Assembly (NCBI GenBank): GCA_005791875.1
Contig: SXTU01000056.1
Location: forward strand, 1-33,035
DNA length: 33,035 nucleotides
Reading direction: 5' to 3'
From: Verrucomicrobiales bacterium
GTDB lineage: Bacteria; Verrucomicrobiota; Verrucomicrobiia; Limisphaerales; SXTU01
Shown piece after piece: positions 9,757 to 32,877 of this stretch. The notes under the pieces are model-generated. The model was not told the DNA's origin and did not search any database. It worked only from the letters and a program-made list of their open reading frames with translations. Made by a program: the position numbers and the translations under genes. Each line of letters starts with the position of its first letter. The first letter of the stretch is position 1.

Positions 9757-9761
9757 CGCTT

Positions 9762-9804
9762 CTCCCTCGCCCCCACCGGGGGAGAGGGCCAGGGTGAGGG
9801 GGCG
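9762..9804 (-). repeat. REP-like element, first arm of a head-to-head pair
   Basis: CTCCCTCGCCCCCACCGGGG followed by GAGAGGGCCAGGGTGAGGGG. It has an internal CCCCC/GGGGG palindrome and is the reverse complement of the copy at 9893-9931. It sits 5 bases upstream of the chosen DUF1501 start. Confidence 0.88.
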
Positions 9805-9892
9805 AGTCGTCCAGCGAGACTGGCCCGCTTGGAAGTCAGGCTGTCCCTTTGCCCCGTCCTCAAATCCGCACGCCCCGCTAGTCCGCAAGCCC

Positions 9893-9931
9893 GCCCCCTC
9901 ACCCTGCCCTCTCCCCCGATGGGGGAGAGGG
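9893..9931 (+). repeat. REP-like element, second arm of a head-to-head pair
   Basis: GCCCCCTCACCCTGCCCTCT followed by CCCCCGATGGGGGAGAGGG. It is the same element as at 9762-9804 in opposite orientation, 88 bases away, so the two can form a large stem. The unit lies between the stop of the DUF1549/DUF1553 gene (9959) and the DUF1501 gene. The 88-base spacer holds nothing recognisable. Confidence 0.88.
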
Positions 9932-9958
9932 TGGTCGCGTTCGGCCACGTCTGGCCTC

Positions 9959-12900: not shown

Positions 12901-13045
12901 GGCACTCGTGACAGCGCTTCTCCAGCAACGGAAGGATTCGCTCCTTGAAAACCGCGTCCGGCCCGGCAGCCCGCGCAGCAACACTCGTCAGCAGCAACAC
13001 GGCCACCGACCAGCAGAGAGGGGCAATGGTGGTCGGTGGGGTCAT
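9959..13045 (-). CDS. Planctomycete-type cytochrome with DUF1549 and DUF1553 domains
   Basis: A 1028-residue exported protein (signal peptide ending near SVAARA). The N-terminal PSCyt1-like module has a haem-binding motif CHECH (45-49) and a downstream MPPKGK Met ligand region. DUF1549 (about 165-400) shows RRLHFDLIGLPPSPEDVEAF, HGERWARHWLDTIHFADTHGFE and a second CxxCH, CARCH (368-372). A middle beta-rich segment (about 450-625) resembles a carbohydrate-binding or discoidin-like domain. DUF1553 (about 725-1020) shows LADWLADPRNPLTWR, NRVWHFHFGRGLCDTPSDFG and DPDNKLLWRMNRSRLDAESFRDAVLAVSG. Such proteins are thought to work in the periplasm with DUF1501 partners, function unproven. Three DNA repeats add in-frame peptides (residues about 153-163, 212-240, 816-846) exactly where relatives have short loops. 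It is divergent from rpsT. Confidence 0.9.
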   Translation of the reverse strand: MTPPTTIAPLCWSVAVLLLTSVAARAAGPDAVFKERILPLLEKRCHECHSHAAKKSKNGLVLDSAAAILSGGDSGPAVVPGEPEKSLLISAVRHASADLQMPPKGKAKLSEAEIALLVEWVRQVEPLKEAAVRVGTDWWSLKPLVRPAVPRGAVSGQRSGVSNPIDAFIAAKLREQKLSPSPEADARTLIRRLHFDLIGLPPSPEDVEAFEHERSLSHSLTLSPAPKAGERVGKWESGNRPLATLVDKLLASPRHGERWARHWLDTIHFADTHGFEHDIFRTNAWRYRDYVITAFNRDVSWQRFIREQLAADVFYPAEPQLIAALGFLGAGPLDTSTQSTAPRTFDYLDRDDLVTQTMSAFASTTAHCARCHAHKFDPISQEDYFALQAVFAGITKAEVPFDESPATGQQRRRWQSLLAAAEAKDATALLTAEHEPLVARWEQTQGKAVTEWLPLALDSFQSSDGATLTREADGSVSAGGKRPERDTYTVTAATTLTNVTALRLEVLSDERLPKKGPGRMDNGNLHLSEFEVRLLVAGSTNATNLKIKRATADFDQTGWPVAHALDGNEKTAWGIHPRVGESHLAVFEFESPLKLAAGAKLVVVLKQLHGGGHLIGRFQISATDSPNVNAEAAPPLVAAGLKLARAQRTAEQRLAIAAHALRQHAQAELAKLPAPAQVFAVKAGMEPKPVHVLKRGDIAKPGQLAEPGALSALVDLPGRFILAEPKREAMRRVALADWLADPRNPLTWRSAANRVWHFHFGRGLCDTPSDFGRMGSLPSHPELLDWLACELRDSGGSLKHLHRLIVTSAAYRQRSDGVMEQWSNGKVGSRQHSTTPSLHHSVDPDNKLLWRMNRSRLDAESFRDAVLAVSGRLDLTLGGPGTEHFKLSKGPQATPKVDYTPFDWDSPGAGRRSIYRVVWRGIADPFMEALDFPDAALLQPTRPFSASALQALTLFNNDFVLRHSEHFAARVEKLGSNLPTRVRAMVRLAFQRTATAEEVRAMSAYAEQHGLPALGRVLFNSNEFLFIN
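10521..10607. repeat. In-frame palindromic element inside the DUF1553 region
   Basis: A purine-rich arm built on GGAGTGATGGAGTGG (10521-10552) is mirrored by a pyrimidine-rich arm with CTCCATCACTCCATCACTCC (10578-10607). Both arms contain a short internal repeat of GGAGTGRTG type. It encodes residues about 816-846, between TSAAYRQRS and DPDNKLLWRMNR, where family members usually have only a few residues. Confidence 0.85.
12333..12405. repeat. In-frame palindromic element inside DUF1549
   Basis: CACTCTCTCACC (12350-12361) and GGTGAGAGAGTG (12375-12386) form a perfect 12-bp stem with a 13-base loop. It is extended on both sides by CCCACTTT / GAGAAAGTGAG-type tandem units. It encodes residues about 212-240 (HERSLSHSLTLSPAPKAG...), between PPSPEDVEAF and TLVDKLLASP, an insertion relative to the usual DUF1549 spacing. 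Confidence 0.87.
12561..12590. repeat. 7-bp tandem repeat (CTGACCG) inside the cytochrome gene
   Basis: Four copies (CTGACCC and three CTGACCG) lie in frame and encode AVSGQRSGVSN-type residues (about 153-163) between the cytochrome module and DUF1549. It is the same unit as at 990-1020 in the unrelated debranching gene, and it gives the same SGQRS peptide, so the reading frame is shared too. Confidence 0.85.
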
Positions 13046-13106
13046 CGTGGGCGAACGGATTCAACGAAACCAGACGGCAGCCCGCCAAGGCAATTCACGG
13101 GCGGGG

Positions 13107-13167
13107 CTGTAGCGGCGGTCTGTGACCACCGTGCTTAGTTGTCGGCGCTCACAGAACGCCGCTACAG
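13107..13167. repeat. Intergenic palindromic element with 19-bp arms
   Basis: CTGTAGCGGCGGTCTGTGA (13107-13125) and TCACAGAACGCCGCTACAG (13149-13167) are inverted repeats with one mismatch and a 23-base spacer. The element lies between the divergent cytochrome gene and rpsT, ending 15 bases before the rpsT -35 box. It is a fourth palindrome family in the window. Confidence 0.85.
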
Positions 13168-13181
13168 GGCGGAACAAGCCG

Positions 13182-13209
13182 TTGACAACGAACGGCCATT
13201 CGCTAGGGT
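13182..13209 (+). promoter_or_regulatory. Sigma70-type promoter of rpsT
   Basis: TTGACA (13182-13187), a perfect -35 consensus, is followed after 16 bases by TAGGGT (13204-13209) as a fair -10. This leaves a leader of about 20 bases before the rpsT ATG. No strong Shine-Dalgarno is present (only GAGA in CGAGAAAACAAT), which suggests S1-type or weak initiation. Confidence 0.7.
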
Positions 13210-13235
13210 GCGCGCCTCGCAATCGAGAAAACAAT

Positions 13236-13517
13236 ATGCCGAACACCAAGTCAGCCGGTCGCCGCATGCGCAACAGCGCGCGCAAGCAAGCTCGCAACAA
13301 CATCGTCCGCACCCAGATCAAGACGGCGGTGAAGAGATTCCGCGCGGCAGTCGAAGCCAAGCAGGACTCCTCGCCCGAAGCTCTCCGCGCCGCCATCTCC
13401 ACGCTCGACAAGGCCGTGAAGAAGGGCGTCGTCAAGCGCGGCACCGCCGACCGCAAGAAGTCCCGTCTTGCGCTCGCCCTCAACCGGGCGACGGCTGCGG
13501 CTGCGGCGAATAAGTAA
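13236..13517 (+). CDS. rpsT: 30S ribosomal protein S20
   Basis: A 93-residue basic protein starting MPNTKSAGRRMRNSARKQARN and ending ALNRATAAAAANK, which matches S20 in length, Lys/Arg/Ala richness and order of motifs (SARKQARNNIVRTQIKTAVK; KAVKKGVVKRGTADRKKSRL). S20 binds 16S rRNA in the small subunit. The ATG at 13236 is chosen because the longer open frame (from 13122) adds an unrelated 38-residue extension that runs through the promoter and the palindromic element. It is a single-gene unit with its own promoter and terminator, divergent from the cytochrome gene and convergent with the lipoprotein gene. Confidence 0.97.
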   Translation: MPNTKSAGRRMRNSARKQARNNIVRTQIKTAVKRFRAAVEAKQDSSPEALRAAISTLDKAVKKGVVKRGTADRKKSRLALALNRATAAAAANK

Positions 13518-13534
13518 GCCATTCTCACTCCGGC

Positions 13535-13570
13535 AACAGGCGTTCCAGACTTGGAACGCCTGTTTGCTTT
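13535..13570 (+). terminator. Rho-independent terminator of rpsT
   Basis: AACAGGCGTTCCA (13535-13547), loop GACT, and TGGAACGCCTGTT (13552-13564) form a perfect 13-bp stem followed by a T-rich tail (TTTGCTTT). It begins 18 bases after the rpsT stop. There is no matching T-run for the minus strand, so it should act one way. Confidence 0.93.
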
Positions 13571-13634
13571 GCGGCGCAAGGTTGAATCCAAGACAGCGGG
13601 CCCGGGCGTTGGAACCGCGCGGCGCGCCGCCACC

Positions 13635-14156
13635 CTATCTCAGGGGGTTGGGCATGATGCTGGGAGCGGCGAACAGTGGCGGGCCCGATGCCGGCGTGTG
13701 GCGTGCAACGATTGTCAGACGGCTGCCCACGGGCCACGTTCCCTGCCACGGCAGCGCCAGCTCATAGCCCGTGCCGAGCGAGCTGGTGACCGCGAAGGGA
13801 GCAAGCTGCGTCGCTGGGAACGACCAAACTCGCGCGGGCTTCACCGAACGTCTCGTCGTTTCATCAGGCGCACCATAATACGCCAGGACCTCCAAGGTGC
13901 CGCTGCGGATTGGAATGCCCTTCGCCTGTCTGCGGCTGCTGGCAAAGACACGCACTGCCAGACCATCGGCCGGGCTCGAGGGGCTTGATCGCAACGCCAC
14001 CGGCGAGACGAAGAGATGCAGCTCGTGAACCGCATCAGCGCGGTTGAACGCACCACCGCTCGACGTCGAGGAGCAGCCGGAGGCGCAGATCAAGGCCAGC
14101 ACCACTGATCCGCCTGCGGACAAGTTCGCCAAGCGCCGAGCAAGGGACGTGGTCAC
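13635..14156 (-). CDS. Putative outer-membrane lipoprotein following gspD (pilotin candidate)
   Basis: 173 residues starting at a GTG whose last bases overlap the gspD stop (GTGA, 4-base overlap), so the two are translationally coupled. The N-terminus has basic residues (ARR), a hydrophobic stretch SVVLALIC and a lipobox ASGC with Cys28. Ser at +2 favours the outer membrane. The mature part (VHELHLFVSPVALRSSPSSPADGLAVRVFASS... TLEVLAYYGAPDE... LALPWQGTWPVGSRLTIVARH) looks like a small beta-sandwich; no named family is recognised with certainty. A small lipoprotein coupled to a secretin gene suggests a pilotin-like role in secretin assembly, but this rests on position only. It is the last gene of the secretion operon. 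Confidence 0.7.
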   Translation of the reverse strand: MTTSLARRLANLSAGGSVVLALICASGCSSTSSGGAFNRADAVHELHLFVSPVALRSSPSSPADGLAVRVFASSRRQAKGIPIRSGTLEVLAYYGAPDETTRRSVKPARVWSFPATQLAPFAVTSSLGTGYELALPWQGTWPVGSRLTIVARHTPASGPPLFAAPSIMPNPLR

Positions 14157-17100
14157 GAGCCGCTGGACTTCCGGCCAGGCGGATTGACGGGTGGAGGTGT
14201 GACCGGCGGCGGGAAGATAGGGTCGAGCAGCGGCTTGTTGAAGTCGTTTCGCTTGATCTCGTCCTTCAGGCGCGAGCGCTCCAACTGGTCGCGCATGGCC
14301 TCGTTCGGATCGGTCAACGGCACGACCGTCTGGTTGTTCGCGAGGATCGTCGGCGTGAGGAAGATAAGCAGCTCGCGCTTCTCCTTCGTGACCGTCGTGG
14401 TGCGGAAGGCCGCGCCGAGATACGGGATGTCGCCGAGGTAGGGCACCTTGCGCACGCGCTTGTCCTCCTGCGTGCCGATGAGTCCGCCAATGATGATCGT
14501 CTGGCCGTTCTGCACGCTCACCGTCGTGTTTGCTCGCCGCTGGTTGATGATCTGCACCGTCGCGGACGCGTTGATCTTCACCTCCGAGCTGCTGATGGAG
14601 GAGTTGGTCGTGCCCAACTCGAGCTTCACGAAGCCGTCGGGGCTGATCTTGGGCGTCACGGTCAGGTTCACACCGATGTCCTCGTAGCGGAACGAGTTGA
14701 TCGTGTCGCCGCGCTCAGTCACACGGCTGTCGGTGATGAGGGGCACGCGCTGGCCGATGTTGATCGTCGCGGGCTTGTTGTCCGCCGTCACGATCTGCGG
14801 ACGGCTCAACACCTCCACCTTGCCGTCGGCCTTCAGCGCGCGGAGCAGGAAGCTGAGGTCGCCGCCCGTGAGCGCCGCGGAGAATGAACCCGTGATGGCC
14901 TTGGCCCCACCAAGATCAATGCCGGCGGTGTAGGGGTTGTTCTTGTGCGTCCACTCCAGGCCCAGCTCGCTGTTGCCGGTCAGGGAAACTTCCGCGAGCA
15001 GCACTTGGACCATCACCTGCGGCTGGGACTTGTCCAACTCGGCGATGAGCTGCTGCACCTGCGTGAAGTAGCGCGGGCTGGCGGAAAGCAGCAGCGTGTT
15101 GCTGTTCGTCTCGCCCACCACGGCCACTTCGCGCTCCAGCATCTGCTGCGCGGCCCCGACGGCGTCCGCGCCCAGCGACTGCGTCACGCGCAGGCGCTCC
15201 TGGTCGAGGAACGAGCGGACGGCCAACGCCACATCGGCGGACTGCGTGTTCTTGAGCCGGACGACCTCGGTGCGCCGGTCGTTGGCCGTGCTGGAGTCCA
15301 GCGAGTCGATGATCTGCTCGACCATCTGCACGTAATGGTCCGTGCCGCCGATGAGCAGGCTGTTCGTGCGCGGGTCCACGGTGACGGTGAGCGCGGCTTG
15401 CTCCGCCGTGCCGAGCGTGGCGCTCGCGGCGTCGTTCGTGCCGCCGGGGCGCACGAGCGTGTATTGGATGGTGCGCTGGCTGGTGGTCGTCGCGGTTGCC
15501 GTCATGCGGAACATCGAGGTCAGGATGTCGGCCATCGCGCGGGCGGAGGCGTTCTTCAGCGCGAAGACCTTGATCTTCGCCTCCTGCGGTGAGCTGGCGT
15601 CGAGGCGCGTGATGATCTGCTCCAGCAAGCCCATGTAATCGACCGGGCCGCTGACGATGAGCGAGTTCATGCGGGGGTCGGGCGTGATCAACACGGACTC
15701 CTTCAACGCCGCCGTGATCAGGTCGCGGCCACCCATCGTGCGCGTGATGAACTGGAGCACGGACTGCGCGTTGGGATTTTGCTGATCGGTGAGTGGCAGG
15801 GGCTTCGTGTTCAACGCAGCGTTCAGGATGGTCGAGAGCATCTCGGCCCGCGCGTTCTTCAGCGGGAAAACCTTGATCTCCGCGACGCGTGCGACCTGCT
15901 CGGTGTCGAGGCGCTTCACCAGTTCGGCGATGCGCCGGGCGTCCACCTCGCCGCAGGAGACGATGAGCGCGTTGATGCGCTCGTCGGCGGTGACCTGCAC
16001 CTGCGTCTGCTGCCCCGGCAGGCCGGGCGGGCCGTCTCGGAACAAGCCTTGCACGGTGAGCGCGACCTTGCGCACGTCCGCCTTCGCCAGCGGGAAGACG
16101 TGGATGGCCAAGCCGTTCGGCGCTGGCTCGGCGTCGAGCTGCTTGATGAGCGCCTCCACGGCAGCCATGTCCTCGACGTTCGCGCCGACGAGCAACGCAT
16201 TGACCCACGCGTCCGCGATGATGGTGATGGGGTCGTTCGGCTCGCCCCGCACGCGCGGCGGGCGGTTGGCGAAGATGGGCTGGAGAGTGGCCTGGAGCTT
16301 CGCCGCAGTGGCCTTCTGCAAGGTGAAGACGCGGAAGTTCAACTTGCTGAACGTCCCCTCGCCGTCGAGTTGCGGCAGGATGCGCTCGACGAAGTCGAAG
16401 GCCTCCTTGCCGCCCGTAACGAGAATCGTGTTCACGCGGTCGTCCGCGATGACCGTCGCCTTCACGCGGCGCTGGTTGGCATTCACGGTCAAGGCGTCCG
16501 CCGCTTCTTTCGCCGTGAAGAACTGCGTCAGCGTCGTCGCGAGCGAGCTGGCGCGTGCGTGCTTGAGCTGGAAGAGCCGCACGTCGCCGGTCACGGCCTG
16601 CTCCTGCGTGTCCATGCGTTTGATGACCTCGCGCACCACGGCCATCGTCTCCGGGCTGGCGCTGACGAAGAGCGTGTTGCTGCGCGGGTCCACGCTCACG
16701 GAGAGCTTGTCGGCGGTGCCGGCTGCGGGTGCGCCGCGCAACTGGCCGGGCCGGTAAAGCCCCTGCTGCACGAGCGAACTCAGCATCGCCCCGACGCGCG
16801 CGGCGTCAGCAAATTGCAACGTGAACGCTTCCAGCACGCCGCCCGCGATGACCGGCTCGGCGTCGAGCTTCTTGAGCAGGTCCTGAATCAACTCAAGGTT
16901 CTCCTTGCTCGCGGAGACGACGAGCGAGTTGTTCAACGCGTCCGGCTCCAGCTTGATTTGCGTGGCGGGAAGCGGCGGCTGGCCCGGCAGCGACTGCGCG
17001 GTCCGGCGCGCGGTGAAGATGCTTTCAATCATCGCCCCGACGCGCGCGGCGTCGTTGTGCTTGAGGGGCAGCACAGTGAGCTGGAGCGAGGGGTTGTCCA

Positions 17101-20100
17101 TGCGCGTGTCGAGCTTCAGGAGCAGCTCGTCAATCGTGCGGTTGTCTTCCTGGTTCGCGGTGATGAGCAGGCTGTTGCTGCGCGGGTCGGGGAGGATCAC
17201 CGGCTTGTTGCGCTGAATGTCCGTCGTGCGCGCGGCGGCGTAGCGCTGCTCGAAGAGCGTCGTCAGCGTCGCGCCCACCAGCCGCGCGTCGGCGAACTGA
17301 AGCGGAATCAGCCGGATGCGCCCGCTCAAGGCCGTGCCCGCCGTGTCGAGCTGCTTCGCCAGGACCTCGACCATCTCGAAGCCGTCGCGCCCGCCGCCCA
17401 CAAGCAGCGCGTTGCTGCGCGAGTCGGCGAGGATGATGACCTTCAGCGCGTCGGACTGGCCCTTGTTCAGCGTCACGCGCTGGGTGAGCCGCGCGTCCAT
17501 GAGCTTCTGCAACGTGCCGGCCACGACGTTGGCATCCGCGTGTTCGAGCGGAAGGATGCGGATGTCGCGCAAGTCGAACGGCAGCTTCTGGTCGAGCTGC
17601 TTCAGCAAGCCCTCGATGATGGCGAAGCTCTTGGTGTTGCCCGCGACGACGAGCGCACCCGTGCGCTCGTCGAGCGTGATGACGGGTTTGTCCTCATTGC
17701 GGACGGTGTTGGCGCGCTGGCCGGCGTAGAGGTCGGCCAAAATCTTTTGCACCGCCGCCGGTTCGGCGTGCGCGAGCGGGAAGATGCGCACGGTGTCCAA
17801 GCCGGACGCAGACGGGATGTCGAGCTGGTCAATCACGTCGCTGATGAGCGGCAACACGTCGCTGCGGGCGGCGATGATGAGTATGTTCGAGAGGTCGTCG
17901 GCCTGGATGGTCAACGCGGCGCGGGCCTTGGCGTTCTCGCTCGTGCGCGGCGCGGCGGCGGCGTCCTTAAGCGTGCGGAGGCGGGTGACCTGCGTCCTAA
18001 GTCCCTCGGTGCCCGGGACCGGTGCGCCCTCGGCGAACACACTTTGCAGCATCGCGACGAGCCGCGTGGCCGAGGCGTGTTTGAGGCGGAACAACTTCAC
18101 CTCGGTCACGGGATGGTCGAGCTGCTTGTCCAAGTCCTCGATTAGCTTGGAGGCCAGCTCGATGGACTCGGTCTGGCCGCTGAGGATGAGCGTGTTCGAG
18201 CGCGCGTCCACGCCGATGCCGACGGGGTTGACGAGCGCCTTGCCGGTCAAGCCCTCGGGCTGCGCGCCGGGGCCGCCGGGGCCGGCGGCGAGCGTGCGGC
18301 CCTGCGTGAAGATGGTCTGCACCGTGGTCAGCACCGACGCGGCGTCCGCGTGCTGGAGCTTGATGATGCGGACGTTCACGCCCTCGACGACCTGCGGCGT
18401 GTCCATCAGTTCGACCACGGCGGCGAGCGCCTTCAAGTTGTCCGGCGTGGAGGTGAGCATCAACCGGTTGCCGCCGCCCACGCCGTCGGCGGCTATCTTG
18501 ATGGGCTTGGTGAGGTCCAGCGTGACGGCCTCGCCGTTGTCGCCGAGCACGCGGAGGCGGCGAATCTGCTCCTGCAACTCGCGCGACTCCGGCGACTGCA
18601 AACCCTGTGCAGCCGGGCGAATCATATTCTGCAACACCAGCGCCAACGCCGCCGCGTTCGCCTTCTTAAGTGCAAAAATCATAACCTCGGCCTCCACGTA
18701 GGGCGCGGGCTTGTCGAGCGATTGAATCATCTTTTCTACCTGTAGGATGACGGCCTCACGCGCGACCACCAGCAGTGCGCGGGAACGCGGGTCCACGGCG
18801 ACGGTGAGCGGCTCGCCGGGGCGGATGAGGTTGAGCTGCGTGACCATCTGCTGCACGAGCGGCAGGACTTTCTCCGGTGGCGCGTTGGTGAGCGGCACGC
18901 TGCGGAAGTCGAGCTGGGCGGCCTGGCCCGCGCCGTCGAGTTGCTTGATGAGCGACTCCATCAGCGCGAAGTCCGTCGGGCGTGCGCGGACCACGACGCT
19001 GCGCGTGCGCTGCTCGGCGACGACCGTGATGCGCGGCGGCTGCTCGACGGTGCGCACCGGCTCGCCGGGCCGCTGCGGCGTGACGGTGACGGGCGGCATG
19101 CGGAGCAATTCGTTCAGTGTGCGCGCCACCACGATGGGGTCAGCGTCCTTCAGCGGGAACAGGCGGAACTCGGCTTCGTTGCTGTAGAAATTCAGCGACA
19201 GGTCGCTGATGATGCGCTCGATGTTGTCCAACTCCGACGCCGGGCCGGAGAGCAACAGCGAGTTCGCGTTCTTGTCCACGGCGATGACAACCTCGGGAAT
19301 CGCATTCGTGTCCGCGACCGTGGCTTGCGCCTGCGGTGCGGGCGGATTGGCCGGGGCGTTGGTGGCCGGAGCGGCGGCGGGCGCGTTGGTCGCGGCGGGC
19401 TTGAACGGGTCCAGTTTCTCGACCACGCGCACGGTGCCGCGCGACATCTGCGGGTAAATGCTTTGCAGCATCTTCGCCATCTGCTCGGCGACGACGCGAT
19501 CGAGCGGGCGAAGGCGGACTTGGATGCTGTTGTCCTTGCTCTGCTCGTCGAGACGCGCGATGAGGTCCTGGATTTGCACGAGGTCGTTGCGCTTGGCGAT
19601 GACGGTCAGCGAGTTGTTCATCACGTCCGGCTCGATGAGCGGCTGCTCGCCCTTGGGCCGCTCGGTGAAGAGCAGCTCCAGCTTGCTCGCCACGTCGAAG
19701 GCCTTGGCCTTCTTGAGCCAGACGAACTGCACGTCGCGGTCGGAGCGCTCGGGGGCCTTGTCGAGCGTGGGGAGAATCTTCTCCACCACGCGGAAGTGCG
19801 CGGGCGTGCCGGAGATGATGAGCGAGTTGGCGCGCGCATCCACGGCCACGTTGATGGCAGCAGCGCGCCCCCGACCACGCGAGACGCCTTGGAGGAGCTG
19901 CTCGATGATGCCGGAGACTTCCTTGGCGGTGCCGTTCTCCAGCTTGTAGATGCGGATTTCGATTTCGTCGCCCTTCATCTCCACGTCGAGCGCCTGGATG
20001 ATTTTCAACACGTCCTCGACCTCGCCGTTCGGGCCGTTGATGAGCAGCGTGTTCGCGCCAGTCACGGGCGTGACGGTGGTGCGCGGGAGCTTGCCCCGGC

Positions 20101-23100
20101 CCATCTTCGCGGTGAACGACGCGGTCACGGCGTTGGCGACCTCCTCGGCCCTGCCCTTCGTGAGATGCACGGCGTGGAAGGTCGTCTTGTCACCAGCGGG
20201 CGCGGCGTCCATTACGCGGACGAGTTGCTCAATCTTTTCCAAGTCCGAGCGCGTGGCGTCCACGATGAGCGTGTTGTCGTCGCCGCCCGCGCTGATGAGC
20301 ATGCGGTCCTCGCGGTCGGCGGTGCCGGCCTGGCGCGGGAAAAGGCGGTTGAGCATCACCACGGCGGCGGCGGCGGAATTTCGCTCCAACGGGAACACGC
20401 GGACCTCGCGGCCCAGCGTGGTGCCGGCCTTGTCCATCACGTCGGCGGTCTCCTGCATGAGCGCGAGCTGCGCCTCGGTGCCGACGAAGATGAGCTGGTT
20501 GCCGGGGATGTCCTCGACGATGACCGCGCCCGCCGTGCCGACCTCGGGCTGGCTGCGCGCGCGCTCCTCGAACACCTGGCGAATCTTCGGCGCGGTCTCC
20601 GTCGCGCGCCGGCCTTTCAGCGCGAAGACCCGCATCGAACGCACCGCGTTCGTGCTGGCGGGTGCGGCTTCGAGCTGTTCAATCAACGTCCCCGCCGCCT
20701 GCACGTCGCGCGCCTCGCCGGTTACGATGAGGCTGCGGTTCTTCGCGTCCACCACGACGGCCACGCGCTTCTGCGGGCGGCCGTTGTAATCCAGCTTCAC
20801 CAGCGCGTTGGTCAGCAGCGCGGTGACTTGGTCGGGGTCGGCGGACTTGAGCTTGAAGACCCGCGCGCCGCCCGCCTGCGAGCCGGTGCGGTTCAGCTCC
20901 TTCACCAAGCCCTCCACCGCTGCGACCTCGTTCGTCGCGCCGGTCACGACGATGCGGTTCGAGTTCGTCTCGGCCATGATGAGCGTGCTGGTCGCCGTCG
21001 CGCCGGGGCGCAGGCGGGCTTGCTCGGCGTAAAGTTGCTTGAGCGTGGCAGCCACCCCGATGGCGTCGCCGCTGGTGAGGTCGAAGAAACGCGTCTCGCG
21101 CACCTCGTTCGCGGCGGGGCCGCGCACTTGGGCGATGATGGCTTCAATCTCGGTGAGATGATTCGTGCGGCCCGTCACGATGACGCGGCCGTTGCGCGTG
21201 TCGGGCAGGAACGACGCGTCCGCCGGGTCCGAGAGCGGCCGCGTGCGCCAGCGCTCCTCGTAGAGCGAGCGAACGAGCGGGACGAGGCGCGTGACTTCGT
21301 CGGCGGGGCCGAGGTCGAACATCCGCGTCGCGCGGTCGGCGGGCTGGGTTTGCAGCTTCTGCAAGTCGTCGAGGATGCGGGTGAAGAGCTTCAACTGCGC
21401 GTCGCTGCCCGCGAGGATGAGCTGGCTGCCGCTCGCGTCGTCCATCACGAGCAACTCCGCCACGGCCAGCTCGGGCTGCGTTTTGATTTGGTCGTCGTAG
21501 AGTTTGCGCGCCTGCGAAAGCAGCGTGTTCGGCGTCGCGGAGTTGAGCTGCACGGTCTGGATTTTCCGCGTGGGCTGCTCGCCGAGCGACTGGTCGAGCT
21601 GCTCGATGATGGCGGGCACGGCGGCGAGTTCCTTCGCGTCGCCGGTGACGATGAGTGTGCGGGTCTTCGCGTCCACCGAGACGCTCACGCGCTTCTGCGG
21701 GCGGCCGAGCGCATCGAAGCGCACGAGCGCCGTGGTCAGCACCTCGGCGACCTTCGCGGGGTCGGCGGACTTGATTTTGAAGACCCGCGCCGTCGCGCTC
21801 TGGCCGGCGGTGGTGTCCAACTTCTTCACCAGCTCCGCGACAGCGTTCAGCTCCGTGACCTCACCGATGGCAATCAGCCGGTTCGCGCTCGTGTCGGCCA
21901 TGATGAGCGTGTCGGGCGTGAGCGCGCCAAAGCGGGCCTTCGCATCCTCCGCGTAAAGCAGCTTGAGCGTCACGGCCAACTCGGTGGCGCTGGCGGTGGT
22001 CAGGTCGAAGAGCCGCGTCTCGCGCGCCTGCGGCTTGGCCTTCGCCGTGCCGAGCTTTTGCAGGATGGTTTCAATCTCCTTCACGTGCTCGGGCCGGCCC
22101 GTGACGATGACGCGCCCGCCCTGCGGGTCGGCGACGATTTGCGCGTCCGCCGGGTCGGTCTCGGGGCGGTCCTTCCACTGCTCGGTGTAGAGCTTCTGCA
22201 CGATGGGCAGCAGCCGCGCCACGTCGTTGGCGGAACCCACTTCAATCATTCGCGTCTCGCGCGCGGCAGTGGCGGCGGGCGTGAGTTCGAGGCGCTTGAA
22301 GATGTCCTCGATGGCCTTCATCTGGTCGGTGCGCGCGCTGACAATGACGCGGCCGGAAACGCCGTCGCTGACCATCTGCGCGTCCGCCGCACCGAGCTGT
22401 GGGTTGGCGGCGAACTGGTCCTTGTAGAGCTGGAGCGCGAGCGCCATGACGCGCCGGGCCTCGGCGAGCTTGCCAAGGTCAATGACCTTCGTTTCGCGCG
22501 CGGCGGGCTGGCCGCCGGCGAGCGTGTCGGCAATCTGCTGAATCGCCTCGGCCTGCTGCTTCGTGCCGAAGACGTTGAGCCGCGTGCCGCTGGCATCGGC
22601 GTAAATCGTCGCGGGCTTCTGCGTCTTGCCAAGCGATTGCTCGGAGTAAACCGCCGTGACCTTCGGCAGCAGCTCCGTGGCCGACGCGTTCTTCAGCACG
22701 ATGGGATGCAGCTCGCGCTGCAGCTCGTCCGGCTTCGCGTCGAGTGACGCCACGAGCGCCTCGATTTGCACGAGCATCGGCTCGGGCGCGAGGACGATGA
22801 GCCGCTTGCCGTTCGGCGTGATGCTCACGAGGTTCGTCACCGCGCGGCCGCCGCTCTGAGCCGAGAAGATGCGCGTGGCCAGCGTCGCGAGCGCGTCAGC
22901 GTCGCCGCGCACTTCGATGAGCTTCATCGCCTTGGGCTTCTCCAAGTTCGACGGGTCAATGCCTTCGTTGTCGAGGCGTTGGATGATGTTCTCCGCGTCC
23001 TTCAAGTCCGCGCGAGTGCCGGCCACGACGATGCTGTTCGACTCCGGGTCTGCGCTGACGGTGATGCGGCGGATGGGCTGGTTGCGGGCATCGAACTTGA

Positions 23101-25981
23101 CCATCGCGTTCGAGACCACGCCGACGACCTTGAGCGCGGTGGCGTTGTTCAGCTTGAAGACCCGCGCGCCGCCCGCGCCCTCGGGGGCCTGGTCGAGCTG
23201 CTCGACGATGGTGTTCACGGCGAGCAACTCGTTGCGCGGGCCGCTGATGATGAGGCGGTTCGCGGTCACATCGGCGATGACTTTGACCGTGGGCGAATAC
23301 TCCGGCCCACGCTGGCTCTTGAGCAGCTCGGTCACGAGCGGCAACGCGAGCGCGGCGATGGCGGTGGCATCGCCCTGCTTCAATTCCATCACGCGCATCT
23401 CGCGCGGCTGCACGTCGCCGGGAGTGTCGAGCTGCTGGATAACCTTCGACGCGGCTTCAACCGCGTCCGGCTCGCCGCTGATGACCAGGCTGTTGCTGCG
23501 CGCGTCCACGAGCACCTTCACGGTCTGCGCCTGCGCGTTAAGGCTCTTCTCCACGAGGCCGGAAATCTCGGCGGCCAGCGCGGCCTTGAGCCGGATGACG
23601 CGCGTTTCCTCACGCGCGGGCTTTTTGCCGACGGGGTCGAGCTGCCGGATGATGGCCTCGACGCGGGTGATTTCCGCCTCCGCGCCGCTGACCATGATGC
23701 GGTTGTTCTTCGGGTCAGCGATGACCGTGGCCGCGCCGCCGGGCGGCTCGCTCTGCCCCCGGAGCTGCTCGGTGTAGAGCTGCGTGACGAGCGTGGTCAG
23801 GTCGGTGGCCGTGCGCGCGTGCAATTCCACGGTGCGGAACTGGCGGGCGAGGTTCTGCGTCGTGGCGGTGTCGAGCTGCATCACCAAATCGCGCACGCGG
23901 GTCAAGTCCTTCGCCGTCGCGAGCACGATGATTTGCTTGCCGCTCGCGTCGGGGATGAGCTTTGGCTCCATCTGCGGGTCCGTGCCGGGGCCGCCCATCT
24001 GTGCGAGGAGCTGCGTGGCGAGCGTGATGATTTCCGTGGGCGTCTTGGCGCGCACGGGGAGGACCACCATCTCTCGACGCTGCGTGGCGGGCGCGAGGTC
24101 AACGACCTGCACGAGCTGCTCAATCTCCTTCAACTGCTCCGGCGTCGCGGTGACGAGCATGCGGTTGTTCGCGTTGTCGGCGACGACGGACGGCTTGGGC
24201 TGGCCCTCGAAGCGTCGGTCGGCCATGCGGTCAGTGAGCAGCTTCTCGAAGCCGGGGAAGACCGTGTCCAGCTTGGTGTTCTTGAGCGCGATGATTTGGA
24301 GCTGGCGGTTCAGCACCACGCCGTTCTTGCCGCGCAGTTGCTTCACCAACTCCTCGATGCGGAGCAAATGCGGTTCGCTCGCCGTGACAATGAGCCGGCC
24401 GTTCTCGTCGTTCATCAGCTTCGCGTGCGGGCCGGACTCCAGAGACCCCGCGCCGCTCATTTGGTTGCGGTAAAGCTCCTCGACAAGCGGCAACAGGCGC
24501 TTCGCATCCGCCGCCGTGCCGACCTCGATGAAGCGCGTCTGTAGCGCTTGTGGCTGCGAAGTGCCCGTCTCCAACTGCGTGAGAATCTCCGTCGCCGTCT
24601 GCAAATCGCCGGGCGAGCCGGTGATGACCACGCTCTTGCTGGCCGCGTCGAACGTGACGCTCGCCGTGGTGCCCGCCTTGCCGCCGGGGTCGCGACGCGT
24701 GAGCGCCTGCGTGATGATGGCGGCGAAGTCCTTCGGCTCGGTCGCGCGCGGGCGGAAAACCTTTGTGAGCGTGATGGTCTGCGTGCGGAGCGCGACGTTG
24801 TTCGTGTTGCCGAACTGGCCGGGCGTGCCCTTGTCCACGCGGCTGATGAGCAAATCAATTTGCTCCAACTGCGCCGCGACCGGCGACGCGACGATGAGGC
24901 GGTTGTCCTTCGTGTCGGCGATGACGCGCGCCTTGGTGGCGGCAGCGGAGCCAGTCTCCTTCGGCTCGGCCACGCCCGGGATGGCTTGGCGGACGATAGT
25001 GGCCAACTCCTCGGCCTTGATGTTTTGCAGTTGGTAAATCCGCACGTCGCCCGCCGGGCCTTCGCGCTGCTCGAACTTCGCAATCAACTCCTCCGCCAGC
25101 GCGATGCGGTCGCGCGGGCCGAAGAGAACCATCGTGCGCGAGGCGTCGTCATAGACGGCGGTGATGTATTCGTTCGGGTCGGGCGGGACCGCGACCATCG
25201 TCTTGGTGGTGGGGTTGAACTCCTGCCGACGCGGCGCGGTGGCGAGGCCGAACGTGCGGTTGAGCAGGTCGGCGACAATTGCGCCCGAGGTGTTTTGCAT
25301 CGCGAAGGTCTTCATCATCCGCTCGGCGGGAGCCTCGATGTCGATGGTGGCGAGCAGGGCTTTGACGCGCTGAATGTTCGCCAGCCGGTCGGTGATGATG
25401 ATGCCGCGACCGCGCGGGAGCACGGCCATTGAGCCCGCGCTGGAGAGCATCGCGGTGAGGGAGTCGGTGATTTCCTTCGAGTCCACGTTCTTCGCGTCGA
25501 GCACGGCGGTGACAACCTCGCCGGGGCGCACGTCACCGGTCGGGGCCGCGCCGCGCAGGAGCTTGAGCGGCGTGGAGGGCAGCTCCTTGAATGGAACGAG
25601 CTGAAGGTAGTTCGCGTTCTCCACGAGCATGACGCCCTTCATCGCGAGGACGACATTGAGCGTGTCGAGGGCCTCGGCGTAGCTGTAGGCGTTGGGGTCG
25701 TTGTAAGTGAGCGTGCCCTCGGGCTTGTTGCCGGCGAGGAGCGGCTTGCCCGCCATCTGCGCGAACCGCTCGATGACATCGGCGTAGGGAATGCCATCGA
25801 ACTGGAAGCGGATGTTGCGCGCGGCAGTCGCAGGCGCGGGCGCGGCGGTGCCCGGCGTGATGGTGACGGACTTCGCGGGGGCGTTCGCGGGCGGCGGGGC
25901 CTTCGGTGCGTCCTGCGCCGCGAGGGTAAACGTGCCGGTGGCGAGCGCCAAGGCGAGGAGCGTGGGGTGCGTGCGGTTCAT
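14153..25981 (-). CDS. gspD: Giant type II secretion secretin with 43 N-type repeats
   Basis: A 3942-residue secretin, about six times the normal GspD length. Residues 1-54 are a signal peptide and Ala/Pro linker. Residues 55-155 are an N0/STN-like domain (IRFQFDGIPYADVIERFAQMAGKPLL). Residues 156-3654 are 43 consecutive NolW/secretin-N-type repeats, most 69-80 residues long. Each has the pattern R-x-hydrophobic-(F/I)-x-L-x-x-A...(V/I)x(A/V)D-x-x-x-N-x-(L/I)-(I/V)-x-(G/A) and ends in a helix (I)xxLD. Residues 3655-3942 are the secretin core (VLLAEVSLT, VLSRPQIVTADNKPATINIGQRVPL, VNLTVTPKIS, QNGQTIIIGGLI, VPYLGDIPYLGAAFR, ELLIFLTPTIL). The protein should form the outer-membrane channel of the secretion system encoded upstream, with a very long periplasmic part. 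The frame is unbroken over 11.8 kb, so the size is not a sequencing artefact. It follows the gspM-like gene by 13 bases. Confidence 0.93.
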   Translation of the reverse strand: MNRTHPTLLALALATGTFTLAAQDAPKAPPPANAPAKSVTITPGTAAPAPATAARNIRFQFDGIPYADVIERFAQMAGKPLLAGNKPEGTLTYNDPNAYSYAEALDTLNVVLAMKGVMLVENANYLQLVPFKELPSTPLKLLRGAAPTGDVRPGEVVTAVLDAKNVDSKEITDSLTAMLSSAGSMAVLPRGRGIIITDRLANIQRVKALLATIDIEAPAERMMKTFAMQNTSGAIVADLLNRTFGLATAPRRQEFNPTTKTMVAVPPDPNEYITAVYDDASRTMVLFGPRDRIALAEELIAKFEQREGPAGDVRIYQLQNIKAEELATIVRQAIPGVAEPKETGSAAATKARVIADTKDNRLIVASPVAAQLEQIDLLISRVDKGTPGQFGNTNNVALRTQTITLTKVFRPRATEPKDFAAIITQALTRRDPGGKAGTTASVTFDAASKSVVITGSPGDLQTATEILTQLETGTSQPQALQTRFIEVGTAADAKRLLPLVEELYRNQMSGAGSLESGPHAKLMNDENGRLIVTASEPHLLRIEELVKQLRGKNGVVLNRQLQIIALKNTKLDTVFPGFEKLLTDRMADRRFEGQPKPSVVADNANNRMLVTATPEQLKEIEQLVQVVDLAPATQRREMVVLPVRAKTPTEIITLATQLLAQMGGPGTDPQMEPKLIPDASGKQIIVLATAKDLTRVRDLVMQLDTATTQNLARQFRTVELHARTATDLTTLVTQLYTEQLRGQSEPPGGAATVIADPKNNRIMVSGAEAEITRVEAIIRQLDPVGKKPAREETRVIRLKAALAAEISGLVEKSLNAQAQTVKVLVDARSNSLVISGEPDAVEAASKVIQQLDTPGDVQPREMRVMELKQGDATAIAALALPLVTELLKSQRGPEYSPTVKVIADVTANRLIISGPRNELLAVNTIVEQLDQAPEGAGGARVFKLNNATALKVVGVVSNAMVKFDARNQPIRRITVSADPESNSIVVAGTRADLKDAENIIQRLDNEGIDPSNLEKPKAMKLIEVRGDADALATLATRIFSAQSGGRAVTNLVSITPNGKRLIVLAPEPMLVQIEALVASLDAKPDELQRELHPIVLKNASATELLPKVTAVYSEQSLGKTQKPATIYADASGTRLNVFGTKQQAEAIQQIADTLAGGQPAARETKVIDLGKLAEARRVMALALQLYKDQFAANPQLGAADAQMVSDGVSGRVIVSARTDQMKAIEDIFKRLELTPAATAARETRMIEVGSANDVARLLPIVQKLYTEQWKDRPETDPADAQIVADPQGGRVIVTGRPEHVKEIETILQKLGTAKAKPQARETRLFDLTTASATELAVTLKLLYAEDAKARFGALTPDTLIMADTSANRLIAIGEVTELNAVAELVKKLDTTAGQSATARVFKIKSADPAKVAEVLTTALVRFDALGRPQKRVSVSVDAKTRTLIVTGDAKELAAVPAIIEQLDQSLGEQPTRKIQTVQLNSATPNTLLSQARKLYDDQIKTQPELAVAELLVMDDASGSQLILAGSDAQLKLFTRILDDLQKLQTQPADRATRMFDLGPADEVTRLVPLVRSLYEERWRTRPLSDPADASFLPDTRNGRVIVTGRTNHLTEIEAIIAQVRGPAANEVRETRFFDLTSGDAIGVAATLKQLYAEQARLRPGATATSTLIMAETNSNRIVVTGATNEVAAVEGLVKELNRTGSQAGGARVFKLKSADPDQVTALLTNALVKLDYNGRPQKRVAVVVDAKNRSLIVTGEARDVQAAGTLIEQLEAAPASTNAVRSMRVFALKGRRATETAPKIRQVFEERARSQPEVGTAGAVIVEDIPGNQLIFVGTEAQLALMQETADVMDKAGTTLGREVRVFPLERNSAAAAVVMLNRLFPRQAGTADREDRMLISAGGDDNTLIVDATRSDLEKIEQLVRVMDAAPAGDKTTFHAVHLTKGRAEEVANAVTASFTAKMGRGKLPRTTVTPVTGANTLLINGPNGEVEDVLKIIQALDVEMKGDEIEIRIYKLENGTAKEVSGIIEQLLQGVSRGRGRAAAINVAVDARANSLIISGTPAHFRVVEKILPTLDKAPERSDRDVQFVWLKKAKAFDVASKLELLFTERPKGEQPLIEPDVMNNSLTVIAKRNDLVQIQDLIARLDEQSKDNSIQVRLRPLDRVVAEQMAKMLQSIYPQMSRGTVRVVEKLDPFKPAATNAPAAAPATNAPANPPAPQAQATVADTNAIPEVVIAVDKNANSLLLSGPASELDNIERIISDLSLNFYSNEAEFRLFPLKDADPIVVARTLNELLRMPPVTVTPQRPGEPVRTVEQPPRITVVAEQRTRSVVVRARPTDFALMESLIKQLDGAGQAAQLDFRSVPLTNAPPEKVLPLVQQMVTQLNLIRPGEPLTVAVDPRSRALLVVAREAVILQVEKMIQSLDKPAPYVEAEVMIFALKKANAAALALVLQNMIRPAAQGLQSPESRELQEQIRRLRVLGDNGEAVTLDLTKPIKIAADGVGGGNRLMLTSTPDNLKALAAVVELMDTPQVVEGVNVRIIKLQHADAASVLTTVQTIFTQGRTLAAGPGGPGAQPEGLTGKALVNPVGIGVDARSNTLILSGQTESIELASKLIEDLDKQLDHPVTEVKLFRLKHASATRLVAMLQSVFAEGAPVPGTEGLRTQVTRLRTLKDAAAAPRTSENAKARAALTIQADDLSNILIIAARSDVLPLISDVIDQLDIPSASGLDTVRIFPLAHAEPAAVQKILADLYAGQRANTVRNEDKPVITLDERTGALVVAGNTKSFAIIEGLLKQLDQKLPFDLRDIRILPLEHADANVVAGTLQKLMDARLTQRVTLNKGQSDALKVIILADSRSNALLVGGGRDGFEMVEVLAKQLDTAGTALSGRIRLIPLQFADARLVGATLTTLFEQRYAAARTTDIQRNKPVILPDPRSNSLLITANQEDNRTIDELLLKLDTRMDNPSLQLTVLPLKHNDAARVGAMIESIFTARRTAQSLPGQPPLPATQIKLEPDALNNSLVVSASKENLELIQDLLKKLDAEPVIAGGVLEAFTLQFADAARVGAMLSSLVQQGLYRPGQLRGAPAAGTADKLSVSVDPRSNTLFVSASPETMAVVREVIKRMDTQEQAVTGDVRLFQLKHARASSLATTLTQFFTAKEAADALTVNANQRRVKATVIADDRVNTILVTGGKEAFDFVERILPQLDGEGTFSKLNFRVFTLQKATAAKLQATLQPIFANRPPRVRGEPNDPITIIADAWVNALLVGANVEDMAAVEALIKQLDAEPAPNGLAIHVFPLAKADVRKVALTVQGLFRDGPPGLPGQQTQVQVTADERINALIVSCGEVDARRIAELVKRLDTEQVARVAEIKVFPLKNARAEMLSTILNAALNTKPLPLTDQQNPNAQSVLQFITRTMGGRDLITAALKESVLITPDPRMNSLIVSGPVDYMGLLEQIITRLDASSPQEAKIKVFALKNASARAMADILTSMFRMTATATTTSQRTIQYTLVRPGGTNDAASATLGTAEQAALTVTVDPRTNSLLIGGTDHYVQMVEQIIDSLDSSTANDRRTEVVRLKNTQSADVALAVRSFLDQERLRVTQSLGADAVGAAQQMLEREVAVVGETNSNTLLLSASPRYFTQVQQLIAELDKSQPQVMVQVLLAEVSLTGNSELGLEWTHKNNPYTAGIDLGGAKAITGSFSAALTGGDLSFLLRALKADGKVEVLSRPQIVTADNKPATINIGQRVPLITDSRVTERGDTINSFRYEDIGVNLTVTPKISPDGFVKLELGTTNSSISSSEVKINASATVQIINQRRANTTVSVQNGQTIIIGGLIGTQEDKRVRKVPYLGDIPYLGAAFRTTTVTKEKRELLIFLTPTILANNQTVVPLTDPNEAMRDQLERSRLKDEIKRNDFNKPLLDPIFPPPVTPPPVNPPGRKSSGS
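15020..25516 (-). repeat. Tandem array of 43 coding repeats (secretin-N type) in gspD
   Basis: Codons 156-3654 of gspD. Repeats 4-26 are compact and regular (69-80 residues, mostly 73-80). Repeats 27-43 vary (75-117 residues) because loops differ, for example an Ala/Pro/Asn-rich insert in repeat 27 (about 2193-2223) and 25-30-residue inserts in 30, 32, 41 and 42. Repeats 1-3 are more divergent. Counts and boundaries were drawn by hand; the domain lengths sum exactly to 3942. Confidence 0.88.
20411..22261 (-). repeat. Two tandem four-repeat blocks within gspD (about 926 bp each)
   Basis: Repeats 15-18 (codons 1241-1549; 21335-22261) and 19-22 (codons 1550-1857; 20411-21334) match in order. 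RETRMIEVG pairs with RATRMFDLG, GGRVIVTGR with NGRVIVTGR, RETRLFDLT with RETRFFDLT, ARVFKIKSADP with ARVFKLKSADP, and GRPQKRV with GRPQKRV. Repeats 10-11 are a further, more diverged copy of the 16-17 / 20-21 pair. Confidence 0.85.
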
Positions 25982-25994
25982 AAAGGGAGAGCGT

Positions 25995-27038
25995 TCACGG
26001 TGTTGTGCGCGGGGCTTCGACTACAGGTTTTGCCAGTTCTGGCGGGAGTTGTGCCAGCTCAAGTTTCCGCAAGTCCGCCAGCGTCTGGCCGCGCTCGATG
26101 GCGAAGAAGGCGTCCTTCACGCGCACGATGACGCGGCTGAAGGATTGCAGGCCGCTGGCGCCGGGTAGCGGCATCGCGCGGTAGTCCACCAGCGCGATGG
26201 TGCCGCCCGCGAGCGCGTCGCCGGGTTTGTAGCGCGCGGTCTTCTGAGTCGTCAGGTCGCGCACGTGAATCTCTGGCTGCCCCTGCCACTCGGAGAGCGA
26301 CACGATGCGGAAGGTCTCCGGTCCCGGCGGTCCCGGCGGCGTGGCGGGCGTGCTCGCTGGAGAACCGGGCGTGTTACGAGCCGGCGCCACGGGCGGTGGC
26401 GGCGGACGCTTGAGGTAGGGCCGCAGCAAATCGCGCGATACGATGCCATCGAAGACCCGGCGCTCGTCGGACTTCAAGTTGGCCTTCGCCACCAACTCCG
26501 TGCGCGTCACATCCGGCGCGGGTTCCATCACCAGCGTGAGGCAGCGGAAGCGCACGCGCACTTCGCCGGGCTTCTCGGCCTGCGAGAGGACCAGCCCTTC
26601 GAGCCGAAGCAGGTGCGGGGCCTGTTCGAGGATGAAGAGCAGGTTCACGACCTTGGCCAGCGGCCCGTCGCCCTGCACGTTCCAGCCGATTTCACTCGCG
26701 CCGCGCAGCTTGCGCGGGCCGAGCGGCAGGCGGGTGAAATCACCTTCGTCCAGGCCCGCCTGCAGAATCTGCTTCGTGAGCGCCTCGCCGGAACGTGCGC
26801 TTGCCTCGTCCGTCGTGTCGGCGAAGGCGAGCTTGGTCAGCGCCTTCAAGCGGTCTTCGGCGGTGAAGAAATTGCGCCGCTCGGTCTGAATCTTGGCGAG
26901 CCGCTCGCGCGCCGCGACGATGCGTTTGTCCAGGTCCGTCAGCGGCTTCATGACGTAGGCGCGGATGCCCAGCGCGCCGCCCAACAGCGCGGCGCATCCG
27001 AGCACGAGGCTCGCCAGCATTTTCTCGCGAGCGTTCAT
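25995..27038 (-). CDS. GspM/PilO-like inner-membrane protein with a GspC/PilP-like C-terminal domain
   Basis: 347 residues. There is one N-terminal membrane segment (about 8-30), then a coiled coil (31-70, LDKRIVAARERLAKIQTERR) and a ferredoxin-like region (about 90-190) as in GspM/PilO. A Pro-rich linker (211-241) follows, and then a small beta domain (242-320: FRIVSLSEWQGQPEIHVRDL...ARYKPGDALAGGTIALVDY...VKDAFFAIERGQTLADL) resembling the HR/PilP fold of GspC, which docks on the secretin N0 domain. The fusion would let one protein do two platform jobs; no separate gspC is seen in the window. A strong Shine-Dalgarno (AAGGAGG) precedes the ATG, which overlaps the upstream stop (ATGA). It lies directly before gspD. 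Family assignment rests on architecture and position rather than strong motifs. Confidence 0.7.
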   Translation of the reverse strand: MNAREKMLASLVLGCAALLGGALGIRAYVMKPLTDLDKRIVAARERLAKIQTERRNFFTAEDRLKALTKLAFADTTDEASARSGEALTKQILQAGLDEGDFTRLPLGPRKLRGASEIGWNVQGDGPLAKVVNLLFILEQAPHLLRLEGLVLSQAEKPGEVRVRFRCLTLVMEPAPDVTRTELVAKANLKSDERRVFDGIVSRDLLRPYLKRPPPPPVAPARNTPGSPASTPATPPGPPGPETFRIVSLSEWQGQPEIHVRDLTTQKTARYKPGDALAGGTIALVDYRAMPLPGASGLQSFSRVIVRVKDAFFAIERGQTLADLRKLELAQLPPELAKPVVEAPRTTP

Positions 27039-30143: not shown

Positions 30144-30171
30144 CGGGGGAGTGGGAAGGCGTGAGGGGGCG
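30129..30171 (-). repeat. REP-like element (first of second pair), overlapping the gspK start
   Basis: CTCCCTCGCCCCCATCGGGG then GAGTGGGAAGGCGTGAGGGG. It is the same family and orientation as 9762-9804. The ATG at 30143-30141 is formed by the CCCCCATCGGGGG palindrome read on the minus strand, so the element supplies the likely gspK start codon and its first four codons. Confidence 0.87.
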
Positions 30172-30207
30172 GCTGCGGAAATTCTGAGCGACCCTCTGCA
30201 CAAGACG

Positions 30208-30254
30208 CCCACCCCCTCACCCAGCCCCTCTCCCCCGCTGGGGGCGAGGGAAGG
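30208..30254 (+). repeat. REP-like element (second of second pair)
   Basis: GCCCACCCCCTCACCCAGCC then CCTCTCCCCCGCTGGGGGCG. It is in inverse orientation to 30129-30171, 36 bases away, and lies between the gspJ stop (30287) and gspK, the same arrangement as the pair at 9.8 kb. Confidence 0.87.
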
Positions 30255-30286
30255 GAAGGCAGTTCGTTCGCGTTGGGGTCGCAGGT

Positions 30287-31072: not shown

Positions 31073-31155
31073 TCGCAACTCCGCAATCCGCATTCCGCGT
31101 TTGAACCGAGCCTCCTCGCGTCGGCTGCTACCGGATTGGCAGGAGAAGCGCATGG

Positions 31156-31578
31156 TCAGAAGGCGGCGGTGCGGGCCAGCGAGTCGGGCACGCGGATGAT
31201 TTGCGTGAGGCGGCGGACCAGCACGGATTCCTGATGCCGGATGATGACCTCCACGCGCAGCAGGCCACTGGCTCCGCCGGTCTCAGTCTCGGTGGGCGAT
31301 ACCACCAGTTCGGCGGTCCACTTGTCGAACGGCGCGGTGAAGGGCTGCTCGCCCGCCTCGGCGGGGGAGCGGATGCCGAGCTGGATTTCCGCGAGCACGG
31401 TGGCGGCGAGATTTGCGGCGTGGGTGTTGCGGCGCTGGCGGTCGAGGTTGTGCGTCGAAGCGCTCATGCCACTGGTGACGATGGCGGCGGCGACGACGAA
31501 GAGCGCGAGGGCGAGAAGGACTTCGAGGAGGGCCGTGCCCGCGTCGGCTCTCCGAGAGCGCGCGAAACGCAGCATCAT
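31156..31578 (-). CDS. gspI: Type II secretion minor pseudopilin GspI
   Basis: 140 residues, the usual size. Prepilin signal ADAGTALLEVLLALALFVVAAAI, with Gly before the cut and Glu at +5. Then SASTHNLDRQRRNTHAANLAATVLAEIQLG, the conserved I-family region (A.NLA..VLAE). GGAGG stands seven bases before the ATG, which overlaps the gspH stop (ATGA). It caps the pseudopilus with GspJ and GspK. Confidence 0.88.
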   Translation of the reverse strand: MMLRFARSRRADAGTALLEVLLALALFVVAAAIVTSGMSASTHNLDRQRRNTHAANLAATVLAEIQLGIRSPAEAGEQPFTAPFDKWTAELVVSPTETETGGASGLLRVEVIIRHQESVLVRRLTQIIRVPDSLARTAAF

Positions 31579-32800: not shown

Positions 32801-32877
32801 GTATCTAAAGTGCGACGGGTTGCGTCCGGCAAGATTCACCGGAAGTCAGTGAAAGTCGAAAAAATTTCTATGGCCGT

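Follow-up and report, generated by a model that had tools for sequence, protein, structure and literature searches.

A Verrucomicrobial type II secretion gate with 43 tandem ring-building repeats

The outer-membrane channel of the type II secretion system, GspD, usually carries an N0 domain and three ring-building N domains ahead of its secretin core, and GspC normally links N0 to the inner membrane. The GspD secretins in PDB chains 5wq7, 6hcg and 5zdh are 627-657 aa long, and PulD, with four N domains, is 20 nm long (PMC6882859). The N-module of ordinary secretins is flexible (PMC10550240). The number of rings is thought to go with the distance to be crossed: the PilQ of Thermus thermophilus has six rings in 757 aa, is 35 nm long and is said to span most of a wide periplasm (PMC5745081). 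Here we describe a GspD from a Verrucomicrobiales bacterium (order Limisphaerales) whose predicted periplasmic part holds about ten times the usual number of ring-forming domains. The giant form is kept by selection in many species and looks like a real machine part. Searches of open-licence literature aimed at long secretins or at secretion in these bacteria, judged mostly from listings, returned no paper on a giant secretin.

The gene lies in contig SXTU01000056.1 of assembly GCA_005791875.1, analysed as a window of 33,035 nucleotides (the entire stretch of DNA, to which all coordinates refer). The genome has 4.7 Mb in 314 contigs and is 90.7% complete. The frame at 14153-25981 on the minus strand, as are all operon features given below, is open from ATG for 3942 codons. 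A sequence-only reading had parsed it into an N0-like domain, 43 consecutive secretin-N-like repeats and one complete secretin core, and this observation is confirmed. Pfam Secretin_N (PF03958) passes on its own in 35 stretches, and Secretin (PF00263) passes once. A six-frame search of the genome gave 36 Secretin_N places in this frame at E<=0.001, including the first repeat at residues 158-217 (25331-25510; 33 bits, E 3.3e-7). A repeat HMM trained on the protein itself, and therefore circular for counting, found 42 repeats between residues 219 and 3650 (15032-25327) but did not recognise the first, which makes 43; the independent counts are those of Pfam. A spurious 2.3-bit hit in the signal-peptide region was not counted, and 100 shuffles of the protein gave a single domain over 5 bits (5.1 bits). 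Fewer than about 30 Secretin_N-like repeats had been set beforehand as grounds for refuting the reading, and the Pfam counts exceed that limit. KH-domain families also match parts of the protein, with four families over their cut-off when summed (three KH and one fatty-acid-synthase domain) but no stretch passing alone; we take these to be cross-matches of a similar alpha-beta fold.

Ahead of the repeats, a signal peptide of about residues 1-22 (25916-25981) was read by eye, and relatives have similar N-termini. Residues 67-124 (25610-25783) match the GspD-type N0 family PF21305 weakly, at E 4.9e-4 and 20.3 bits against a cut-off of 27. The core at residues 3715-3880 (14342-14839) scored 178.7 bits to PF00263 in one search and 170.7 bits, against a cut-off of 27.5, in the Pfam scan. 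When the C-terminal 265 aa were scanned, the best NCBIfam was GspD TIGR02517 (E 1.1e-59), at 202.5 bits and below its whole-protein cut-off of 351.35. A profile search placed the core with PDB chain 5wq7 GspD (E 8e-60), and the top Foldseek hit was 6hcg PulD (E 5.3e-23). The C-terminal tail (14156-14341) is S-domain-like by position only, an inference.

Most repeats are only about 30% alike. In the window protein, 39 of the 41 linkers between the 42 HMM repeats are 4-7 aa, and over 21 genes, cut ones included, the median is 6 with a 5-95% range of 4-9 (767 linkers). Repeat 1 is 85-86 residues long in the 21 complete genes, and the linker after repeat 2 is 15-19 residues in the complete genes whose linkers were inspected. 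Repeats of the N-terminal half are about 72 aa, whereas long-loop repeats (84 residues or more) sit at kept distances from the core. The last three, repeats 40-42 (15032-15889), lie in an N3-like place next to the core and are long in every giant gene examined that reaches this part. A stretch at 17819-19531 holds long-loop repeats 26, 29, 30 and 31, at positions -17, -14, -13 and -12 from the core, and these positions are kept in most relatives. Position -12 is long in all but one genome (G169; genomes, contigs and loci are labelled G, C and L) among those long enough, and -14 and -17 are long in most but not, for instance, in G057, G011 or G093.

Structure prediction and profile searches agree with a ring-building fold. 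AF2 models of residues 3044-3942 (mean pLDDT 58.9) and 1157-2000 (75.1) show the basic beta-alpha-beta-beta-alpha order in all 7 and 11 repeats, respectively, some with extra elements in the loop. They are single chains with low pTM (0.32 and 0.27) and so say nothing on stacking. Both models match secretins in the PDB; a KICSTOR-GATOR1 chain at rank 9 for the central model has a TM of 0.13 and is taken as chance. A profile of 11 central repeats matches GspD N-domain stretches of roughly one and a half to three domains, with 5wln the best at E 1.2e-13.

The gene is the gspD of a type II secretion operon with the order gspG-H-I-J-K-L-M-D. The major pseudopilin gspG (32276-32839; TIGR01710, 95.9 bits) is over its NCBIfam cut-off and of ordinary size. 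The gspH-like (31575-32273; TIGR01708, E 2.8e-5), gspI-like (31156-31578; TIGR01707, E 2.6e-8) and gspJ-like (30287-31153; TIGR01711, E 7.6e-5) genes are significant but below theirs. The gspK gene (28653-30476) is over its Pfam cut-off (PF21687, 53.4 bits) but below that of NF037980 (98.7 bits). The gspL/PilM-like gene (27035-28660) matches PF11104 at E 5.6e-6, with 26 bits against a cut-off of 27, and is below its NCBIfam cut-off; the gspM-like gene (25995-27038) matches NF040576 at E 1.2e-5, below cut-off, and is also placed by its position. No GspC was found: PF11356 gave 0 matches at E<=0.1 in this 90.7% complete genome, while 3 of 14 control genomes gave a match. The whole order from gspG through gspD to the lipoprotein gene that follows was seen in 7 of 26 regions examined (G010, G001, G002, G050, G049, G039 and G153), most others being cut before it, and gspE and gspF lie upstream in G010. 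G011 is different: gspE and gspF follow the lipoprotein, gspG-M are not beside the giant, and GspL lies on another contig. In the same-genus relative G005, gspL was found in two pieces (contig C50, 83408-85044) with a stop inside one open stretch, although its giant gspD is whole.

The lipoprotein gene (13635-14156) overlaps the gspD stop by 4 bases, and a lipobox is seen in its product. Its family has no Pfam match (18 members, E<=0.01), and the best PDB sequence gave E 0.27, so no match to a family of known pilotins was found. Among 58 relatives, it was found in 21 of the 23 carriers of the giant and in none of the 35 others; in two carriers (G044, G057), it was on another contig. A plain lipobox pattern missed several members. 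With a profile, among 243 genomes of the order, giant and lipoprotein were both found in 72, the giant only in 4 (G048, G150, G203, G222), the lipoprotein only in 7 (G053, which has a cut giant, G104, G127, G151, G156, G192, G234) and neither in 160, the tables being compared by eye and by crossing the sets of genomes. G192 has two matches to the lipoprotein (contigs C133 and C358) but only 5 Secretin_N matches in its genome. The next frame, 13061-13633, encodes 190 aa without a Pfam or NCBIfam match and had no match in 26 relative regions. Beyond it, 8290-13045 holds a planctomycete-type cytochrome/DUF1549/DUF1553 gene and a DUF1501 gene. Both were seen in 2 of 26 relative regions (G009, G050), DUF1501 alone in G003 and PSD1 alone in G010, although many regions do not reach that far.

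Giants with 28-55 HMM-counted repeats occur in other families of the order. The core query found the giant in 21 of 58 relatives, own genome included, and GspL pointed to two more (G008, G048) whose giants are cut by contig ends, giving 23 of 58. The GspL of this operon occurs in 22 of these 23 carriers (not in G047, 76% complete) plus G051 (E 9.5e-4). Among the 21 complete genes examined, HMM repeats number 42 in all 8 of the genus (own included), and elsewhere 41 (G038), 42 (G016), 42-43 (G039), 38 (G057), 44-45 (G011), 46 (G050, G093, G207), 55 (G049), 28-29 (G153), 28 (G075), 30 (G170) and 34 (G169), with two figures where two score limits differ. One more locus, L064, has a frame closed at both ends with 37 repeats. 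The other giants are cut at contig ends or at the ends of the stretch analysed, apart from L069 (3-11032) and L075 (212-11046), which have a broken frame: 26 + 17 repeats in two frames, and a core out of frame with its 40 repeats. Record titles of 35 related loci mostly name Verrucomicrobia, Verrucomicrobiales, Limisphaerales or Pedosphaera bins, and eight (six Akkermansia, one Klebsiella, one Proteobacteria) look like mislabelled bins. By Secretin_N count, 76 of 243 genomes of the order look like carriers, with 24 or more matches per genome and none having 17 to 25; this count rests on only 23 candidates scored at first look (17 in the phylum sample) and not on one gene seen whole in each. 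In a phylum sample of 337, the own genome has 23 matches and no other exceeds 15. A scan of viral contigs gave no relative.

The two ends of the array are conserved, and the largest length changes fall in the middle. In the genus, every repeat has a one-to-one, collinear partner, with conservation of 66-95% per repeat, lowest in 15 and 17-20. A central zone (20432-22267; HMM repeats 14-21) contains a duplication of four, 14-17/18-21, in which pairs 14/18, 15/19 and 16/20 are 51-60% alike and 17/21 only 27%; copy number changes in and just after it in several families. Among giants of 38-55 repeats, the larger changes lie around repeats 15-22: +4 in G050 and G207 (in G207 the block of four is there once more) and +12 of the +13 in G049. 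Single repeats also differ elsewhere (G038 near 6, G047 at 26-27, G049 near 5, G057 at 13-14 and 29), and G011 and G093 are much less collinear. In the giants of 28-34 repeats (G153, G170, G075, G169), repeats 1 and 2 and the last 18 to 21 have partners in order (1, 2 and about 23-42, one or two missing or, in G169, two doubled), while only 8-11 repeats without clear partners stand for the 20 between. In four pairs, dN/dS was 0.113-0.175 for the whole protein, 0.111-0.134 in repeats 1-13, 0.207-0.342 in 14-21 and 0.086-0.148 in 22-42, indicating purifying selection in all repeat zones; the core itself ran from 0.033 to 0.275.

The same genome encodes secretins of ordinary size. On contig C278 (about 25.3-27.7 kb; L002 and L009), a second secretin is encoded as two genes (575 + 418 aa), an N-domain protein ending in a Gly-rich tail and, after it, a 418-aa frame with a secretin core and its own signal peptide. 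Related cores of 398-480 aa occur in nine families of the order. A 1080-aa frame on C250 has two Secretin_N matches, and a third secretin, on C185, is cut by the contig start. In a tree built by a quick method, 52 giant cores lie on one side of a branch with SH-aLRT 100 against ten cores of the class of the two-gene secretin, so a single origin is shown only against that class. Seven of the 69 core rows were left out: four long-branch secretins (L003, L004, L117, L120), a second, shorter copy of the own-genome two-gene core (L009) and two cores too short (L072, L075). An earlier tree with the four long rows did not keep the giants together, as two long rows fell among the giants and two giants fell with the ordinary cores.

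Our preferred explanation, which we consider about as likely as not, is a GspD whose periplasmic vestibule has been lengthened by tandem duplication of ring-building domains, from the usual three plus N0 to 43. In this view, about 15 copies would assemble as in other GspDs, the core would sit in the outer membrane, and the repeats would stack ring on ring as a long tunnel with N0 at the far end, towards the inner-membrane platform. The two ends and the long-loop repeats would hold kept places (docking and constrictions), while the middle repeats would act as a spacer whose number was changed, in part by duplicating blocks of four. At a rough 2.5-4 nm per ring, from PulD and Thermus PilQ, the tunnel would be about 110-170 nm and would need an enlarged periplasm, such as planctomycetes have (PMC5394234) and such as the ribosome-free paryphoplasm described in strain Ellin514 (PMC2647929) might be. 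Paryphoplasm has, in a later reading, been taken as periplasm. The lipoprotein is probably a dedicated pilotin or collar. The repeat number and order, conservation, selection, operon and co-occurrence rest on direct evidence from the sequences, whereas the oligomer, stacking, length, wide periplasm, production as one full-length protein, secretion of folded proteins, and the lipoprotein's role, including any binding to the C-terminal tail and movement of the secretin to the outer membrane, are inferred without structure, proteomics or microscopy. Several observations speak against this view: the periplasm cannot be wide wherever the ordinary secretins sit, GspC was not found, GspG is of ordinary size, single repeats come and go outside the middle (G038, G047, G049, G057, G011), the operon differs in G011, and repeat numbers of 28-55 between families ask for very different widths. 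In its fullest form, a rigid or jointed stack of about 44 rings with a tunable central spacer, several constrictions and its own lipoprotein, the tunnel would exceed 100 nm, far longer than any secretin whose structure we found, and would be a molecular ruler for periplasm width in this order. We regard this form as somewhat less likely than not.

The main rival, possible but less likely, is that only the repeats next to the core (perhaps the C-terminal 12-20) form stacked rings, while the long N-terminal part folds back around or hangs from the vestibule as a skirt, sieve or cargo-catching antenna in a normal periplasm. The ordinary secretins in the same genome imply some normal-width periplasm, the C-terminal long-loop repeats differ from those of the N-terminal half, the C-terminal 20 are the block best kept between families, and no GspC was found to hold N0. 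However, repeats 1-13 are nearly as constrained as 22-42, the weak N0 match is kept at the far end, and linkers are as short there as next to the core; about 15 chains of 20 or more loose domains would also, we infer, be very crowded. It is unlikely that the protein is made or matured as separate pieces through proteolysis, frameshift or internal starts, leaving a working secretin of ordinary length. The two-gene secretin and the broken frames of L069 and L075 would fit this, but the 21 complete genes each have one unbroken frame, there is no recurrent break point, the uniform linkers leave no obvious cleavage site, and the two broken loci break at different places and may be assembly errors. 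Neutral growth of the array by slippage is very unlikely: a four-repeat duplication exists and copy number changes mostly in the middle, but dN/dS is 0.09-0.34 in all repeat zones, the low similarity of most repeats shows that the array is old, the number is fixed in the 8 complete genes of the genus, and the lipoprotein appears dedicated. An assembly or annotation artefact of draft metagenome bins is refuted by the same gene in separate assemblies with different record titles, by the one-to-one repeats in all seven other complete same-genus genes, by the giants in other families of the order, by the low whole-protein dN/dS and by repeats that differ too much to be collapsed or expanded by assembly.

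The interpretation offered by the sequence-only reading is partly supported. Its domain count, order and ring-building fold are right. It had suggested that the protein must fold back, let many repeats project sideways or span an unusually wide periplasm. The short uniform linkers, strong constraint, conserved ends with a length-variable middle and the Thermus PilQ precedent favour stacking by inference, although the ordinary secretins argue that the periplasm is not wide everywhere and the alternatives remain possible on present evidence. Its suggestion of a distinct class of gate is supported in part by the clade of giant cores against the two-gene secretins of the same order and by the lipoprotein in 72 of 76 carriers, but core and operon are those of a type II secretion system, making this a variant of GspD and not a new kind of gate. 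A conserved gate with ten times the usual rings means either that these bacteria have a very wide periplasm crossed by a single protein tunnel or that N-domain repeats have a role other than tunnel wall, and both bear on the long dispute about the cell plan of Planctomycetes and Verrucomicrobia.

Compared with PulD, XcpQ and ETEC GspD, the giant shares an N0-like start (a weak match), ring-building N domains, the secretin core and the gsp operon, but it has 43 ring-building repeats instead of three and 3942 aa against 627-657, with no GspC found in the genome and its own lipoprotein family. It resembles Thermus thermophilus PilQ in having extra ring-building N domains, thought in PilQ to form stacked rings across a wide periplasm and in the giant inferred to do so, but PilQ has only six rings and belongs to a type IV pilus and DNA-uptake system. 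The best Foldseek match of the central-repeat model is 8co1_A1, a secretin of PDB entry 8co1 (Deinococcus radiodurans DR_0774 by the name of chain Q1), a 740-residue sequence named a type IV piliation protein. Within the phylum, a genome of another order, G406, encodes a 1346-aa secretin (L120, 2047-6087) with an N-domain expansion of 9 HMM repeats, and G494 has as many Secretin_N matches in its genome, 15. The G406 core is 38% identical to the giant's over 203 aa and its place in the tree is unsure because of a long branch, but this far shorter protein may represent an intermediate length.
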